A program made the position numbers and the translations under genes. A stretch of 64,000 nucleotides of DNA from Dermatophagoides farinae (taxonomy: Eukaryota; Arthropoda; Arachnida; Sarcoptiformes; Pyroglyphidae): contig NC_134686.1 of NCBI RefSeq assembly GCF_024713945.1, forward strand, positions 2,256,001 through 2,320,000. Direction: 5' to 3'. The notes beneath the pieces are model-generated. The model saw only the letters and a list, made by a program, of their open reading frames with translations, was not told where the DNA came from and searched no databases. Position 1 is the first letter of the stretch. Each line of letters opens with the position of its first letter. Shown piece after piece: positions 13,501 through 49,483 of this stretch.

Positions 13501-14646
13501 TCAATTCAGTATATAACAGTTTATAACGAGAAACATTTCAGTTTTTTTTATATATACACTAAAACTCTATCTATCTATCTATCTATGTATGTTGAGCTAC
13601 TCAAACATTATCCTAAGGCTTTCATTCAAAATTAGAATTGAGAAAAAAAAACGACAACAACAACAACAATAACAACAGCATTTAAGAAGGCACAGAATTT
13701 AGTTGATGATGAAAGTAAGAATAAAACTACACTACTATTGTCAAGAATTGAAACTGTCTGAAATCTGATGATAAAACAACAACAACAACGACAATAACAA
13801 AAAGAGAAAAAAGCTTCCAAAAGATAATACTTGGTAGGTCTATAATCCACACTATATAAGAATCATCATCATCATTATTTTGTAATGACAAAACAAAAAA
13901 ATGGAATCCATTTCATTCTCCAACAGCATCAGGTGTGTGTGTATGTGAAACAGTAATGGAAATTAAATTGGAAAATAATTTCAATTCCACACACACACAC
14001 ATGGACAAAATGAAAAAACAACAACAAACAAATACTAAAATGATTGAATGGAAATGAAACAAAAAAAAACAAACTTGATTTGATTGTAATTTGATCATGG
14101 TATTATATAACCTTAACACTATAGTCAAGTGTGTAATTTCAAAATAATTTATCCACCATCATCATCATTTGTTGTTATTCGTCTGTTTGTCTCTTGTGAT
14201 GTTTTTTTTTGTTTGTTTCTTCCATTTATTATTTTTTTTTTAAATCCAGCTGGAGTGAATTCAATGGGCGAAACAAAACGACAACGTACATCATATACCC
14301 GATATCAGACATTAGAATTGGAAAAAGAATTTCATTTTAATCGTTATCTAACACGAAGACGTCGTATTGAAATTGCACATTCATTATGTCTTAGTGAACG
14401 GCAGATAAAAATTTGGTTCCAGAATCGTCGTATGAAATGGAAAAAAGAACATAAAATGCAAAGCGTTATACCACCACAATTACCTCAAATGCTTGGCCCA
14501 ATTGATCATCATCATTTACATCATCATTTACATGGTGAAACAAAGGTAGAGAACAAAAAAAAAACTCCTGTGTTTGTTTTGTTTTTAATTCACACTCAAA
14601 TTTATATTTTTTTTCTCTGTTTCAGATATTTTCGGCTTTAAATTAA
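7522..14646 (+). CDS. Scr: Sex combs reduced (Hox5-class homeodomain transcription factor), three coding exons
   Basis: CDS join(7522..8515, 14250..14545, 14626..14646), 436 residues. Seen: the protein starts [10 protein letters not shown], the hallmark Scr N-terminus; SCKFG (residues 200-204) and SPQDLST (211-217) match the conserved internal Scr motifs; hexapeptide [11 protein letters not shown] at 320-330; homeodomain at 340-399 with the Scr-type arm [10 protein letters not shown] and end KKEHK. Runs of Ala, His, Gln and Asn fill the N-terminal half. Exon 1 ends in phase 1 at a GTAAGT donor (8516) and joins AG at 14249, giving the expected Scr linker with GETKRQRT. Known: Scr is a nuclear DNA-binding factor that specifies labial and first-trunk identity and uses YPWM to contact Exd/Pbx. 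The ATG at 7522 is chosen because homologues begin at this motif; the frame stays open upstream to 7339 without another ATG. AATAAA at 14664 may be a polyadenylation signal. Splice sites were read by eye. Confidence 0.95.
8516..14249 (+). other. Scr: Large Scr intron between hexapeptide and homeobox exons
   Basis: This 5734 bp phase-1 intron has a GTAAGT donor at 8516 and a T-rich tract ending in CCAG at 14249. An intron between YPWM and the homeobox is usual for Hox genes. The interior holds only simple repeats: CA/GT tracts at about 8581, 9841, 12200 and 13020, GTTGTT/CAACAA runs, GAT/ATC runs, a GACGAC block near 13416, and a perfect 34 bp palindrome at 9434-9467. I see no exon-like sequence. 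In other arthropods large Hox introns often carry enhancers; nothing here proves that. Confidence 0.85.
9434..9467. repeat. Perfect 34 bp palindrome
   Basis: The left arm ATTATGGATGATGATGA is followed without spacer by its exact reverse complement. The centre is between 9450 and 9451. It includes flanking non-repeat bases (ATTATGG/CCATAAT), so it is more than a GAT/ATC repeat junction. It lies in the Scr intron. Confidence 0.9.
14273..14452 (+). other. Scr: Scr homeobox (60-residue homeodomain)
   Basis: This segment encodes residues 340-399. The recognition helix contains [14 protein letters not shown], with the invariant W, F, N and R of Antp-class homeodomains (Gln50, Asn51). The N-terminal arm [12 protein letters not shown] and the ending KEHKM are diagnostic of Hox5/Scr. 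The helix 2 stretch reads [10 protein letters not shown] where most arthropod Scr proteins I know have AHALCLTERQ, so two positions match this window's Dfd instead. Confidence 0.95.
14546..14625 (+). other. Scr: Short 80 bp intron near the Scr C-terminus
   Basis: The donor is AAAG|GTAGAG at 14546, and the acceptor is a T-rich tract with CTGTTTCAG ending at 14625. Removing it (phase 0) changes a tail that reads like intron translation (many F, L and I residues) to a compact end, HGETK followed by IFSALN and a stop. Unspliced, the frame stops at 14639-14641. The short hydrophobic ending loosely recalls the usual arthropod Scr terminus (FAHLSA-like). I judge splicing more likely than read-through; an RNA read would settle it. 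Confidence 0.65.
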
Positions 14647-38121: not shown

Positions 38122-38393
38122 GATGACCACAAGTTGTTTTTTTTTACCCACCTAAATTACATTATTATTATTATGGATTGGTTAGAAAAAAATTGTCAAG
38201 TTTCTGGTCATCATTTTAATCAGAATATAATTACATATATATAGTGAACATGTTTATAGATTGTGACAATAAAAATTTTCATCATCATCATCATCATCAA
38301 TGGAAATTATTATTATAAATTCATTACAACAACAACAAAAACAAAAACAACCAAATGGAACCAGATTAACAAAAAAAAAAAAAAAAAATCAGA

Positions 38394-38533
38394 TGCTTTA
38401 CTTTTACCCTGTAGATCCGAATATTGTCATTGAAAACAAAAAAAAAAAACAGCAACAAAATAAATTTGTAAATCAAAACCGGAAAAAAATTAGAAAGAAA
38501 CAAATTCGGATTTAGAGGGGAAAATGTAGAGTA
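38394..38533 (+). ncRNA. mir-10: mir-10 microRNA precursor
   Basis: The 5p arm carries TACCCTGTAGATCCGAAT starting at 38405, identical to the conserved first 18 bases of miR-10-5p. The 3p arm (38500-38520) contains CAAATTCGGATTTAGAGG, like miR-10-3p. The arms pair: GATCCGAAT with ATTCGGATT, then TTGT with ACAA after one A/A mismatch; basally TA, TCCC and TTTT pair with TA, GGGA and AAAA around single mismatches, and the stem continues through GCTTTAC with GTAGAGT. Known: mir-10 sits between the Hox4 and Hox5 genes on the coding strand across bilaterians, as here (Dfd begins 8.7 kb downstream), and fine-tunes Hox and other targets after transcription. Odd: the terminal loop is about 70 nt, much longer than the roughly 20 nt of insect mir-10, and the 5p arm reads AATATTGT rather than AATTTGT. 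Confidence 0.93.
38405..38427 (+). ncRNA. mir-10: Predicted mature miR-10-5p
   Basis: Positions 2-8 give the seed ACCCTGT, the canonical miR-10 seed. The first 18 bases are identical to the family. After that an extra A appears (AATATTGT), so the 3' end differs from the usual ATTTGT. The ends are set by homology; small-RNA reads would fix them. Confidence 0.85.
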
Positions 38534-41500
38534 TTCATAATGACATCTGTATATCTGTGTATCTGTGTTATTTGTTATTTGTTGTTGTTGTTGTTATTTA
38601 TTACGTCTATTACGACCATTTTTTTTTATAATGATGATGAATGTTAAATATGATAAATTGCAGTCATTCATTTTGTTTTCTCATGAATCAAATTAACCAT
38701 AGAATAGGAAAGAAAAGAGTTAATTTGAACAATGACACACACACACACTGTCTTTTTTCGTTATGATTTCATTTCATTTCATTTTTGTTTGTTTGTTTGT
38801 TTTTTGTTTAATTTATATTCCTATTCAATTTCCCTGTGTGTATGTATGTCTTTTTTTTTCTATTTATTATATATCATTTTAAATTCTCAATACAAAATAG
38901 TCAGTTTTGTTGTAATAAATGATAAATGTATCGACTTGTTTTACATTTGTTTTTTTTTTCGTGACAAATAATATTTTCTGCTATTGTAGTGATAGTAGCA
39001 ACAGTAATAATAATTAGTTATAGTAGTAGTAGTGGCAGTAGAATATTCTTGTAATGATGTGATTATTATTTTATTTGGATTTACTGTATGATCTGTATTC
39101 ACTTGATATGAATAATGAGAATTGTTTTTTTTTCACACTTTGGAAACAAAAACGATAAAGATAAGAACCATCTTGTATAGCAATTATTATTATCAATTTA
39201 AATGATGATCATCATCATGATCATAACCGTAATCAATCAATGGTGGTGGTGGTGATGGTACATTGTACCTTGTGATTTTGGTTTCTTGTACAATTGAATT
39301 ATTATTACATATTTTTTTTCCTGTTATACAATATAATAAATAATGATGATGATGGTAATCATAACGATTTTTTTTTTATTACCCACTTACACTATTCGAA
39401 CTTTATTTTCTAGAAAAAAAAATGGTGATGATGATGATGATGATGATCTTGTTTGTTTGATGATTTATAAATGGTGGTGATGATCCATGATGAGAACAGG
39501 AACAAGAGTTTGTTTTTCGATCATTTTTTATGATGATCTCTTTGGTTTGTTGTTGTCGCTCACTCGTTTATGATGATGATGATGATGATCATGATCGTTT
39601 TTTATGGTCATTACATATCAATTTTGGAGAATCAAAAGTACCATCATCATCATCATTAGTGATTGATAATGACATTCATGTTTTTTTTTCTTTTTGCTTT
39701 TTTTGGTTCAGATTTTCACTGTTTGGTTGCAAAAAAAAGGTCATTATTTTTTTCTGTTCATTTTCCGTTGAACCCTGTTGATTTAATTTGGATCATCATT
39801 GGTTTTTTGACCCAATTTTTTTTTTCTTGAATTTCTTTCAAAGAAACCCTTTTTTTTCCTTTGAAAAAAAACACCTAGAAACAATTGATTTGCAAAGCAA
39901 TTTGTTGCTCCAGATTTTTTTTTTTTAACACAAATGATGCTACATTTATCCATACGATCCATTACATTATTATTACTTGGCCTTGCACTTGAATTTCTTA
40001 AGTTTTTGTTTCCTATTACTACTACTACTTTCTCTCTCATCATTATCGTTGTTGTTGTTGTTGTTGTTGATTATCATCATCATCATCATCATTATCATTG
40101 AAAAGATTAATGAGAGAAAATAAAAATATAAACGACTCACATACATACACACACACATGTAATATGATGTAAAATATGCCGTTTAACAACCACAATTTGT
40201 TGACGATGATGATGATGATGAAGACTATTACATTAAGTTTTCACCATTCACTTTTATTTTCAATACACACCTGATTCTTGATGATGACGATGACGATGTT
40301 GACGATGGTGATAATTGTAAATTCTAAAAAAAAATTTCACTAATTAATTTGTGCAAAGGTTTTGTACCTTTTTCTACCATTTTTTTTCTAAAAAAAAAAT
40401 TTCCGTATAAATCCAAGATATCCGACAATCAAAAAACAAAACAAGAAAAAAAATGGATGTGTGATTCATGAAAAATCGTGTTGTTTAAATGTGTGTGTGT
40501 GTGTGTTTGTTTGCCAATGATAATTACTATTTTACAATCTATCTATCTATCTATTTATGGTGATGGTGAATTTAATCTGTCTGTTTGTAATCGATTCAAT
40601 TTAATTCACATACAGCTACTGGCTAGCTACTACTACTACTACTAATAATAATGAATGATTTGTTGTATAATGATGATAATGATAATGATATTGGCATGAA
40701 AAATTCATTTTGTTTTTGTTTTTTTTTTGGTAATTTTTTTTAATTTCATTTCATTTTTTTTGCACAATGATACTAACTGTAAATTGATAAATGAACAGAA
40801 ATCATTGATCAATTCATCATCAATCCATTAATAATGATGATGATGATTTAAACATCACCATCATCATCATCATTATAATCAATAGTGTGATAATAATAAT
40901 TAAATTGTAATTAATTAATCCTCGATTTAATATATTCACGCACACGCACACACACACACACACATTACATAACTCATTGGTGTCTATTATCAATCATATA
41001 TTTACTGATGATAATTCATTTTTCGATATACACACTGGTCATTTAAATCTCATATTTCATTTCATGTTTGTGTGTATTTCATTTTTTTGTTGGAAATGGC
41101 CACCTCTTTTTTCCTAAATAGTCTTTTTCCATTTTGATTTAAAATCTATAAAAAAAATGGACATGATCAAATGAATATAAACAATTTTGATATTTATGGC
41201 TCACATACTGTTTACTTTTTTTCAATTATTATTTTTCTGAGTGCAAGTTTTTCCATGTGTGTGTGTGTGAGTGTGTTTGTGTGCGAAAATCCAATCATCA
41301 CTGACCATAAAAAAAACAACTTCAAACATCAATTTCTCAGGACTTTTCTTGCCTTTTTCTTTGATAATGATTGAAAATAACTTTTGTCAATATATATGAT
41401 TTGTTTGGCCATATAGCCACATTTGATAAATTTTATTTCTGATTACAGTGCATGGCTGTTTGTTGTTTTTCATATATGAATGATTGAATGATGATGATAA

Positions 41501-44893: not shown

Positions 44894-45295
44894 GACATTA
44901 TTTACGAATATAATAATTCTCCTCATGAGGCAACTGGGTTTTCACCGGCATTTTTATTGTAATATGAGCAAAAAAGTGACAATTGATTAAAGTGAAGAAA
45001 CAATAATCGAAAATTTAAAAGACCACAATTTCAAGTTAATGATGATGTCCTTGTGGAAGGTGCATGGCATCAATAATGGCAAGTTGACTCCCGTTATGGA
45101 GGGCCCATACAAGATATTGAAAATCGTATCGGAATCAAATGTGGAAATAAATCGACCAAACCAACCCACAAAACGGGAAACGGAAATAATCAACGTCAAC
45201 AAATACGGTTGTATCATCACCCGGGAAAATCAAAATAGGGGCGGGGAGATTCACGACATTTCTGAAGGGGTCGTGAGCGAAAATAAAAAACACAA
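44894..45295 (+). pseudogene. Integrase C-terminal remnant of the retroelement
   Basis: The fragment from 44894 reads through a core end typical of Ty3/gypsy integrases (NNSPHEATGFSP) and stops at 44960-44962. After a frameshift, the segment from 45039 has KLTPVMEGPYKILKI and ends in a region like the family's NVNKYG. It overlaps no host gene. Confidence 0.7.
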
Positions 45296-45367
45296 CGGTT
45301 TTTTGAGTAACAGCAATTGTAAATTGATATAAAGAAGTGAATAAAATAAAATTATTTTTGTTTTGAC

Positions 45368-45453: not shown

Positions 45454-47189
45454 TTTTTTTCTCTCTCTATCTAGCCAAAAACTAACGAATGAATGAATGA
45501 ATGAATGAAACAAAATGGATGAATCCAAACATGGCTGCCTTGCAATAATAACCATGATGATGATGATGATGATCATGTTGATGATGATCATGATGATAGC
45601 AGCAACATTGAAAGATACAACAAATTCTCAAAATGAATGGGAAAAGAAAAAAATCATGTTTCAATGTTCTTCGGCTGCTGCTTCTGCTGCTGCCATGATG
45701 ATGATGATGATGAGAAAAATTCTTTTTTTTTATTCATTTCAAAACAAAGATGAAAATGAAAGAAAAAAAAATATGCCAAAATGTTTGTGGCATGCAGGCA
45801 TGATTTTTTCTTCTTCTTCTTCTTCTTCTTCGTCTATTTGGTTATAATTTGGTTTGAAGTTTTTTTTCTGGTGTATTGCAAAATATATTTACAAATTCAA
45901 TTCAATTCAATTCACAACAAAAAAAAAATTAAAGTAAAAAAACAATGCGCATGCTCAAAAAAAAAATTTTTTTTTACATTAAACTAGAGATAGATATATT
46001 GAGATGGGCGGGACTGAAAAATGGGTGTAGTTATTATTCACAATTTTTTTCTTTCTTTCTTTCTCATTGTTGTTGTTGTCGTTGTTGTTGTCGTCGTTGT
46101 TGTTGTTGTTGTGTTATATTTGAATTTTCCCATTCGCATTTTTTGTTTTGTTTTTTTTTTGGTTCTCTATTTCTTTACGATTCATTTTTTTTTGTGATTC
46201 GTATCCACACTGTATTTGTGTATGTGTGTGTGTGTGTGTGACAACAACGAATAAAAAACAATTCATCACTGTCACACACACACACACACACTGACATGCC
46301 AACTTTCAGTATAAATGTATACCACTTCCATTAACATATACAACAGAAGCAATTTTTTTTGTTTTCTATTAAAAATAACTTGAAATAGTCACGTGTTTAT
46401 TCCATATAACTATTGATAATGTTGTTATATATCCAAACAAAAAAAAAGGCGGAGCTTTTAACTCTGACTAGCATACATATATATATGTGTATGTGTGTTG
46501 TGTGTATTTGGGCAATGAGTGTGTATATATGAATGAGTGAATAATAGAAAGATGGATGGATGGATGGATAGCAAGAGAAAGAAAGAAAGAGAGAGCGAAT
46601 GAGAGACAATCGAAAATACATCATTGATATCGAATGAAATCGACGACGAAGACGACGACAACAACAACAAGCAACGAATGATGATGATCATCATCATCAT
46701 CAAAAAAAAATAAGCCTGTATGGTGTTTGATATTGTTTTTTTTCCTTGTTTTTTTCGGAATCATATATATTCTCTGAGAAATGTTGTTATTATTGAATAC
46801 ATTTTTTTTTTTTTGATCATATGAATTCAAAATTGCAAATAAACAAAACAGTGACAAATATATATGATGAAATGGTGAATTGAAAAATTTTAAAATTCTA
46901 ATTCAAAAAAGAATTCATCTATGAAAAACAGATCTTTATCATCATGATGATGATTAACATTGAAAATGACCAATGACCTATGAACAAGAAAATTAATCAA
47001 ATGTTGTTGTTGTTGTTGTTATTATTGACGTTTTTATTTTTTATTTTATTTTCAAATATTTATTGTGAATCATTCCAATAATTTCATCAATAATTTGCTA
47101 TCATCGACATTAATTTTTATTTCATTTCATCATTAATTTTTATTATTAATTAAAATTATTGACTGTTGTTTGATTGATAAATCCTGATA
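45454..47189. other. Dfd upstream region
   Basis: No coding exon is seen. It holds GAT, GTT and CA/GT runs, the NRF1-like motif and GC box (about 45942-46011), and AAAGGCGGAGC at about 46445. The last 200 bp before the ATG are AT-rich with ATTAAT words and lack a convincing splice acceptor, so the Dfd leader is probably continuous with exon 1. Confidence 0.5.
45942..45954. promoter_or_regulatory. Second NRF1-like motif upstream of Dfd
   Basis: ACAATGCGCATGC is identical to the first 13 bases of the motif at 17225. A GC box (GGGCGG at about 46006) lies 50 bp downstream. Together they lie 1.2 kb before the Dfd start and could be part of its promoter region; this is inference. Confidence 0.25.
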
Positions 47190-49483
47190 ATGGTCATGAG
47201 TTCTTCGTTTATGATGAATTCTACGCCGGCGGCCTATCCAACGGCCGCCATCGTTGATCATAAACCATTTGTATCATCAATGAATTTGATGGATCCATTA
47301 TCATTAGATTATGGTACAGGTGGATTATCTACCACTACTGGTAGTAGTGTTATCGGTGTTAATAATAGTAATAATGGTAATGGTGGATTAATTGGTACCG
47401 GTGTCAATGGTATTGTTGTTGGTACACAGAATGGTAGTGTTGTCACACAGAATAGCCATCTAAATCATCTGACAAATTCAAATCATCCACATCATCATCA
47501 TCATAGTACACATCCTAATCATCATAGTTCATATTCATTATCTGACTATTATGGAAGCCATCATTCACATCATCATCATACGACACATCAATCAACGGCC
47601 GCATCAAATTCAATTCAATCAGCACTTGCGGCCGCTGCTGCTGCTGCTGCTCAATCACAAATGCCACCAATGGGCCTTGGCCAACATCATCATCTTGGTG
47701 GTGGTGGTGGTGGTGGTGGTGTCACAGGTAGTGTTGGTGGTGCTGGTGGCGGTCCAATTATATCATCACCACATACCCATCCAATGAATCATCAAATGAA
47801 TTCACACCATCATTATGGTTATCATTTAAATTATTCACCAATTGACCAAAACCCGGTACAAATAACACATCATCCACATGCATCTCATCATAATGCTGGT
47901 CATCCACATACACCACATCCACAACATCATACAACGCAGCATCCATCACAACAACATCAACAACAGAATCATCATTTAATATCATCTCATCATCATCCAT
48001 ATGGTGCACATTCAATGTCATCATCATTAGGTCAATCAATGGCCAATTCTTTATCAACATTAGGTGTGAATAATAATAACAATAGTAATGGCAATGGACA
48101 TCAATATTTTTCACCATGTTCTATGGGAAATAGTGGTGGTGGTGGTGATGTTTCACCACTTGGACCATTATCAATGTCTACTACAGGTCCACATCCATCA
48201 TTATCATTACAGAATTCAACATCAACACCAACAGCGTCATCATCGAATAATCCATCATCAACAACACCAAATAATAATAATCAAATATCACCAATAAGTC
48301 ATCAACATTCACCATTGGGTGGTACAAATAGCAATCTAAATTCTTCCGGTGATCCCGGTAGTTGTGGTGGTGGTGGACATTTATCATCACGTGTATCAAG
48401 TCCTTCATTAATTGGTCAACATTCACCACAATCACCTGGTAGTCGTTGTAATAATCAATCGATGGGTTTATTAATTGATCCACCATCACCAATGATTGAT
48501 GATTGTGCATTATCCACTGCATCTGGTTCTGATTCTGGTACTGGTGGTGGTGGTGGTAGTAGTAGCGGTGGTGGTGGTGGTCATCCAGTGATATATCCAT
48601 GGATGAAAAAAGTTCATGTTGCACCGGGAAAAGGAGGTAAGATAGATTGATTAGATTCATCATTTGAATTCAATTGATTCATCGATCAAGAATTCATTAA
48701 TTAATACTAAACAATTTTTCTTTTGTTTTCTTTGGAATATTCAATGTGTTTTTAGGAATTCAAAATGGTGGCAATAATTTTACTGGGGCCGAACCAAAAC
48801 GTCAACGAACTGCATACACACGTCATCAGATATTAGAATTGGAAAAAGAATTTCATTTTAATCGTTATCTAACCAGAAGACGACGTATTGAAATTGCACA
48901 TTCCCTTTGTCTTAGTGAACGACAGATAAAGATTTGGTTTCAGAATCGTCGTATGAAATGGAAAAAAGATAATAAACTACCAAATACAAAAAATGTGAAG
49001 AAAAAGAATCCACAGAATAATAATAATCAGAATAATTCGAATAATAATAATCAATCGAACAATAATAATAATAATTCCATAATTGGTGGCAATACAAATT
49101 CTGATTCGCCAACAGCAACAACACCAACAACAAATGCGGCTGCAACGACGCCGACAATAAATCATCAACAACAACAGCATCCAAATCAATCATCAACACC
49201 GAATCATTTGAATCATCTTGATCATCATCATCATCATCCTCAACATCATCTAAGTCATCATTTAAATCATCATCCATCAATGGGTATTGTACCACCACCA
49301 ACATCCATAACACCACAACCACAAGGTGGACCATTATCATTAGCAAATATTGGTCCACCATCACAACAACAACAACAACAACCACCACCACCATCATCGT
49401 CATCATCAATGTCATTGAATGATATTAAAACTGAATCTACTAATAATGGTCCACCGGGATTGTATGGTATAACCGAATTATGA
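47190..49483 (+). CDS. Dfd: Deformed (Hox4-class homeodomain transcription factor), two coding exons
   Basis: CDS join(47190..48636, 48756..49483), 724 residues. Seen: N-terminus [11 protein letters not shown], with MSSSFMM like the Dfd start MSSFLM; hexapeptide [12 protein letters not shown] at 467-478; homeodomain at 496-555 with arm [12 protein letters not shown] and ending KKDN, followed by [11 protein letters not shown], the Hox4/Dfd signature. The N-terminal 460 residues are rich in His, Gly, Ser, Asn and an Ala run; the C-terminus has Asn and Gln runs and ends [19 protein letters not shown], comparable to the Dfd terminus. Exon 1 ends in phase 1 before GTAAGA; the acceptor TTTTTAG is at 48755. 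Known: Dfd specifies gnathal segments, is nuclear, and binds DNA with Exd/Pbx through YPWM. Start: 47190 is the first ATG; 47196 is the alternative and fits the family start slightly better. Confidence 0.96.
48637..48755 (+). other. Dfd: Short 119 bp Dfd intron between hexapeptide and homeobox
   Basis: The donor GTAAGA at 48637 and a T-rich acceptor ending TTTTTAG at 48755 restore a continuous phase-1 frame (Gly split across the junction) into [17 protein letters not shown]. It sits in the usual Hox intron position but is about fifty times shorter than the matching intron in Scr. Confidence 0.88.
48794..48973 (+). other. Dfd: Dfd homeobox (60-residue homeodomain)
   Basis: Residues 496-555. 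[20 protein letters not shown] and the ending KWKKDN are diagnostic of Dfd/Hox4. The recognition helix holds the invariant WFQNRR. The middle reads HFNRYL and [10 protein letters not shown] where Drosophila Dfd has HYNRYL and AHTLVLSERQ; vertebrate Hox4 proteins also have HFN and LCL. From LELEKEF to KWKK the protein is identical to this window's Scr. Confidence 0.95.

Follow-up and report, generated by a model that had tools for sequence, protein, structure and literature searches.

Canonical Drosha substrates combine a lower stem of about 11-13 pairs with an upper stem of about 22 nt. Arthropod Hox clusters are expected to carry mir-10 between Dfd and Scr, a place from which it is reported to have moved in the spider mite Tetranychus (PMC4862073), and its arm use is described as 5p in a spider and in Tribolium and as 3p in Drosophila (PMC4987109). 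For let-7, the longest group mean of loop length given in one comparison is 28.13 nt, in vertebrates, with loops measured between mature ends and thus slightly differently from the innermost-pair span used here (PMC4232593). Where the terminal loop is less stable, the Drosha of both zebrafish and fly, as well as fly Dicer, has been reported to cut better, a correlation given as not significant for zebrafish Dicer or with miRNA expression (PMC8761633). Fly Dicer-1 reportedly engages the loop through its helicase domain (PMC3521659). In Dermatophagoides farinae, one Drosha has been described, together with a Dicer-1 bearing an ATP-binding helicase domain that surprised the authors of that report (PMC5805368).

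Here, the mir-10 locus of D. farinae was analysed in a 64,000-nt stretch of its Hox cluster (the window; Table 1). The hairpin at 38392-38535 is the mir-10 orthologue of the mite, located at its ancestral site, which is flanked by Scr upstream and Dfd downstream, and in the same orientation as both. The 16-base core of miR-10-5p, ACCCTGTAGATCCGAA, is present exactly and matches once in the 62,435,336-base genome (22 contigs; control 0). Compared with fly miR-10-5p, the 17 bases starting at ACCC show no change, and the only substitution among the first 18 is A for T at base 18; the 18 intact bases claimed in the initial annotation are therefore reached only when the U before ACCC is counted. 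The locus shares with the arthropod Hox-cluster mir-10 of Rfam (RF00104) the mature 5p and seed, the 3p arm, the Scr-Dfd place, the orientation, and the stem geometry, but differs in having a single bulged A within the 5p arm and in its score of 19.2 bits against a curated cut-off of 47.5, which is a detection threshold rather than a biological definition and which the ordinary-loop paralogue mir-993 also fails to reach (36.4 bits). We take the downstream gene to be Dfd from its place and from hallmark residues. As a possible target site, the 7-mer TACAGGG (5p seed) is present a single time on the + strand, at window position 1489.

Table 1. Features of the mir-10 locus (window coordinates) and of the other conserved miRNA genes located in the genome; the span is the number of nucleotides between the innermost arm pairs.
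Feature	Position	Strand	Arm-to-arm span (nt)	Remark
mir-10 hairpin (pri-miRNA stem-loop)	38392..38535	+	72	MFE -36.1 kcal/mol, z -5.2
Lower stem of mir-10, 5' side, 13 pairs	38392..38404	+		pairs with 38522-38535
Predicted miR-10-5p, ACCCUGUAGAUCCGAAUAUUGU	38406..38427	+		unique 16-base core; putative ends
Bulged A in 5p arm	38423..38423	+		unpaired in MFE; neighbours paired
Terminal loop of mir-10, 72 nt	38428..38499	+		A-rich (65% A), mostly open
Predicted miR-10-3p, CAAAUUCGGAUUUAGAGGGGAA	about 38501..38522	+		duplex with 5p -25.8 kcal/mol; putative ends
Scr homeodomain	14276..14455	+		best solved structure: fly Sex combs reduced, E 5.3e-33
Presumed Dfd: YPWM exon and homeodomain (48794-48976)	47181..48976	+		open reading frames; best solved structure: Antennapedia
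let-7	L028 1501-1785 (G000:C1:3022095 onwards)		241	near-perfect star arm 241 nt away
mir-133	L029 2540-2811 (G000:C1)		229	1289 nt downstream of mir-1, same strand
mir-9	L030 1501-1645 (G000:C6)		101	101-nt loop
mir-1			59	
mir-125			47	
mir-124			39	
mir-993			19	

As the initial annotation had proposed, the region folds into a single hairpin with a long open loop and well-paired arms. Its minimum free energy compares with a shuffle mean of -19.05 kcal/mol (0 of 200 shuffles equal), and the hairpin is real; the antisense strand gives a weak one (z -2.0, equalled by 7 of 200 shuffles). The two arms form 19 pairs, whereas the next-best partner for miR-10-5p within 400 nt reaches -10.2 kcal/mol and the best of 30 shuffled matures -15.4 kcal/mol; likewise, when partners up to 120 nt downstream were sought for 400 22-mers drawn at random from the window, no pairing matched the duplex energy, the closest reaching -25.3 kcal/mol. 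Pair probability in the lower stem rises from 0.52 at the outermost pair to 0.997 at 38398-38529, and the 13 lower pairs followed by 22 nt reproduce the geometry of a canonical Drosha substrate. The extra A of the 5p arm is present as described, but it is a one-base bulge, between the pairs U38422-A38504 and U38424-A38503, and not the A/A mismatch proposed. Because of this bulge and the large loop, the apical pairs are weak (the last four, with probabilities of 0.66-0.72 in the two tested), so ragged apical ends are possible.

The terminal loop is as long and as A-rich as first described, a composition equalled by 0.33% of the 72-nt windows in the stretch, although the lengths of its A-runs depend on the assembly. 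It is predicted to be largely open, with a mean unpaired probability of 0.79 and, when folded alone, a stability no better than that of shuffles (z +0.3; 100 shuffles). Because of this loop, the match covers 131 nt on the 74-position RF00104 model; the claim of a loop much longer than in insects accordingly stands as an excess of about 57 nt over the Rfam model, which, rather than insect sequences, is the basis of the comparison.

The initial annotation had allowed that a second intact mir-10 elsewhere might leave this copy silent. None was found in a genome-wide search, by the 16-mer, which is unique, or by an Rfam mir-10 search at E <= 0.001, in which 59 of 5897 candidates were scored; the sole match of the latter was mir-993, the window copy being absent from it because of its low score. 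The sequence CCCTGTAGATC occurs three times genome-wide against five for its backward control, which is chance level; the two matches other than the mir-10 hairpin (L004, L005) reach at best -15.4 and -10.0 kcal/mol, respectively, with any partner arm, neither of which is strong. A silent relic that has lost its function and whose loop is decaying could account for the 5p-arm bulge, the low Rfam score, and the A-rich loop; nevertheless, both arms and the lower stem are still paired, the 17 bases from ACCC still match fly miR-10-5p, and no other mir-10 was found to take over, which together render such a loss very improbable.

Conserved miRNAs of the same genome, chosen for their conserved matures or for nearness to them, were sought by mature sequence regardless of loop. 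Seven families were sought by pattern, of which mir-10, let-7, mir-1, mir-9, and mir-124 were each found at one place, mir-100 at none, and mir-2 at one; mir-993 was located through Rfam, and mir-125 and mir-133 through 49 matures scanned over 40 genome sequences (205,822 bases). The mir-2-like match (L027) was dropped from the survey, as its best partner (-13.8 kcal/mol) is no better than those that shuffled matures can find (best -18.9). For mir-100, AACCCGTARATCCGAAC has no exact match genome-wide, and allowing as many as two changes outside the seed likewise gave no match in about 10 kb on either side of let-7. Within the let-7 cluster, mir-125 lies 777 nt downstream of let-7.

In this survey of one genome and eight genes, five of the seven conserved precursors located besides mir-10 have spans of 47-241 nt. 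Over-long loops thus seem to be a habit of this genome and no quirk of mir-10. The relaxation is not universal, since loops are ordinary or nearly so in mir-993 and mir-124. As a paralogue, mir-993 (L002) shares with mir-10 the sequence CCCTGTAGA, the Rfam family, and the contig, on which it lies 197.8 kb further; it differs in its short loop and in its 3p arm, GAAGCUCGUUUCUACAGG. The let-7, mir-133, and mir-9 precursors resemble mir-10 in that an over-long loop joins conserved arms, although the loops of mir-9 and, somewhat, let-7 are folded relative to shuffles (z -2.9 and -1.8, respectively) whereas that of mir-10 is open.

The distant star arms agree with the fly stars at 15 of 21 places for let-7 and at 17 of 21 for mir-133. 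Their duplex energies (-27.5 and -23.9 kcal/mol) were reached within 300 nt by three and five of 400 22-mers taken at random from the window, respectively, so that duplex energy by itself is moderate evidence for these two. In mir-133, mir-9, mir-1, and mir-125, the mature duplex is followed by a lower stem; let-7, left to fold freely, favours a hairpin confined to its 5' flank, and its lower stem forms once downstream pairing is imposed on the 5' side (with longer flanks, such that the energies of the two folds are not comparable). The let-7 and mir-133 spans could each hold a small intron, and splicing might then yield precursors with ordinary loops; however, a pattern search for GT[AG]/[CT]AG, which differs from a trained splice model, found no pair restoring an ordinary loop in either, and the mir-10 loop has one GTAAAT with the next TAG about 25 nt on, such that introns of this kind are hardly to be expected. 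A search of the open-access literature with few terms brought up no report of mite miRNAs with long loops, although such loops may have been published before.

The hairpin, the only mir-10 located, is probably processed in the ordinary manner, and its loop is probably one case of a general relaxation of terminal loops. Drosha with Pasha would cut at a distance of about 13 pairs from the basal junction, after which Dicer-1 would measure about 22 nt from the Drosha-cut end; the 72-nt loop would be discarded after cutting. Terminal-loop length has probably become generally relaxed in this genome, presumably through weakened selection, with arms and lower stems kept while AT-rich sequence can accumulate in the loop.

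The initial annotation had instead suspected that the loop disturbs processing, and the long loop and bulged A might indeed alter that of mir-10 specifically, by making Dicer cuts less precise, moving the ends, or turning arm use towards 3p. The weak apical pairs, which may blur the apical cut together with the bulge, are consistent with such a change, as is a strong computed end asymmetry of the duplex (5p end -5.7, 3p end +3.4 kcal/mol), and arm use is reported to switch among arthropods (PMC4987109). The Drosha and Dicer distances are nonetheless canonical, relaxed loops are reported to be permissive (PMC8761633), and long loops also occur in other miRNAs here; a change specific to mir-10 therefore appears unlikely. 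As the 5' end of the 3p strand is much the weaker, the 3p arm is predicted to be favoured, an asymmetry that stems from the stem and not from the loop.

Returning to ordinary processing with generally relaxed loops, a broader proposal may be put forward tentatively, and with more doubt than conviction: that the usual upper limit on loop length was lifted in this mite lineage for many of the oldest animal miRNAs through a change in how Dicer-1 and its partners read the loop, with current annotation tools consequently missing the genes and reporting false losses. That an altered Dicer-1 permits long loops is a guess. If let-7, mir-133, mir-9, and mir-10 do work with loops of 70-240 nt, loop length would be much freer than in textbook pre-miRNAs, and mites would offer a natural setting in which to test the need of Dicer-1 for a loop close by.

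Genes of this kind can easily be overlooked, as only two of the eight conserved miRNA genes, mir-1 and mir-124, are called at Rfam's own cut-offs. Below the cut-off, matches at E <= 5 were obtained for mir-9 (163 nt on 78 positions), mir-993 (78 on 74), and mir-10, and let-7, mir-125, and mir-133 gave no Rfam match even at E <= 5. Loop length is not the sole reason for these failures, because mir-993, with its ordinary loop, fails too. In this regard, tools that expect short precursors would under-count ancient miRNAs in mites; a spider-mite study, for example, is reported to have required fold-backs of 60-80 nt for novel miRNA calls (PMC4822788).

Lastly, several features of the surroundings may be recorded. 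By homeodomains, the Hox order on contig 10 (G000:C10:2120947-2492235) reads Ubx-like, Antp-like, ftz-like, Scr, mir-10, and Dfd, all on the + strand, followed beyond Dfd by two homeodomain matches on the - strand (2432799 and 2447538) and then by mir-993 on the + strand. Between mir-10 and Dfd, an open reading frame of 113 aa (window 44991-45332, + strand) resembles by eye the terminal part of an integrase from a retrotransposon (GPYKIL). The placing of the host among acariform, astigmatan-like mites draws on a protein with a Der p 2 domain (L032), whose closest matches are Der p 2 (E 1.5e-30) and Der f 2 (E 2.5e-30), although it is clearly distinct from both.
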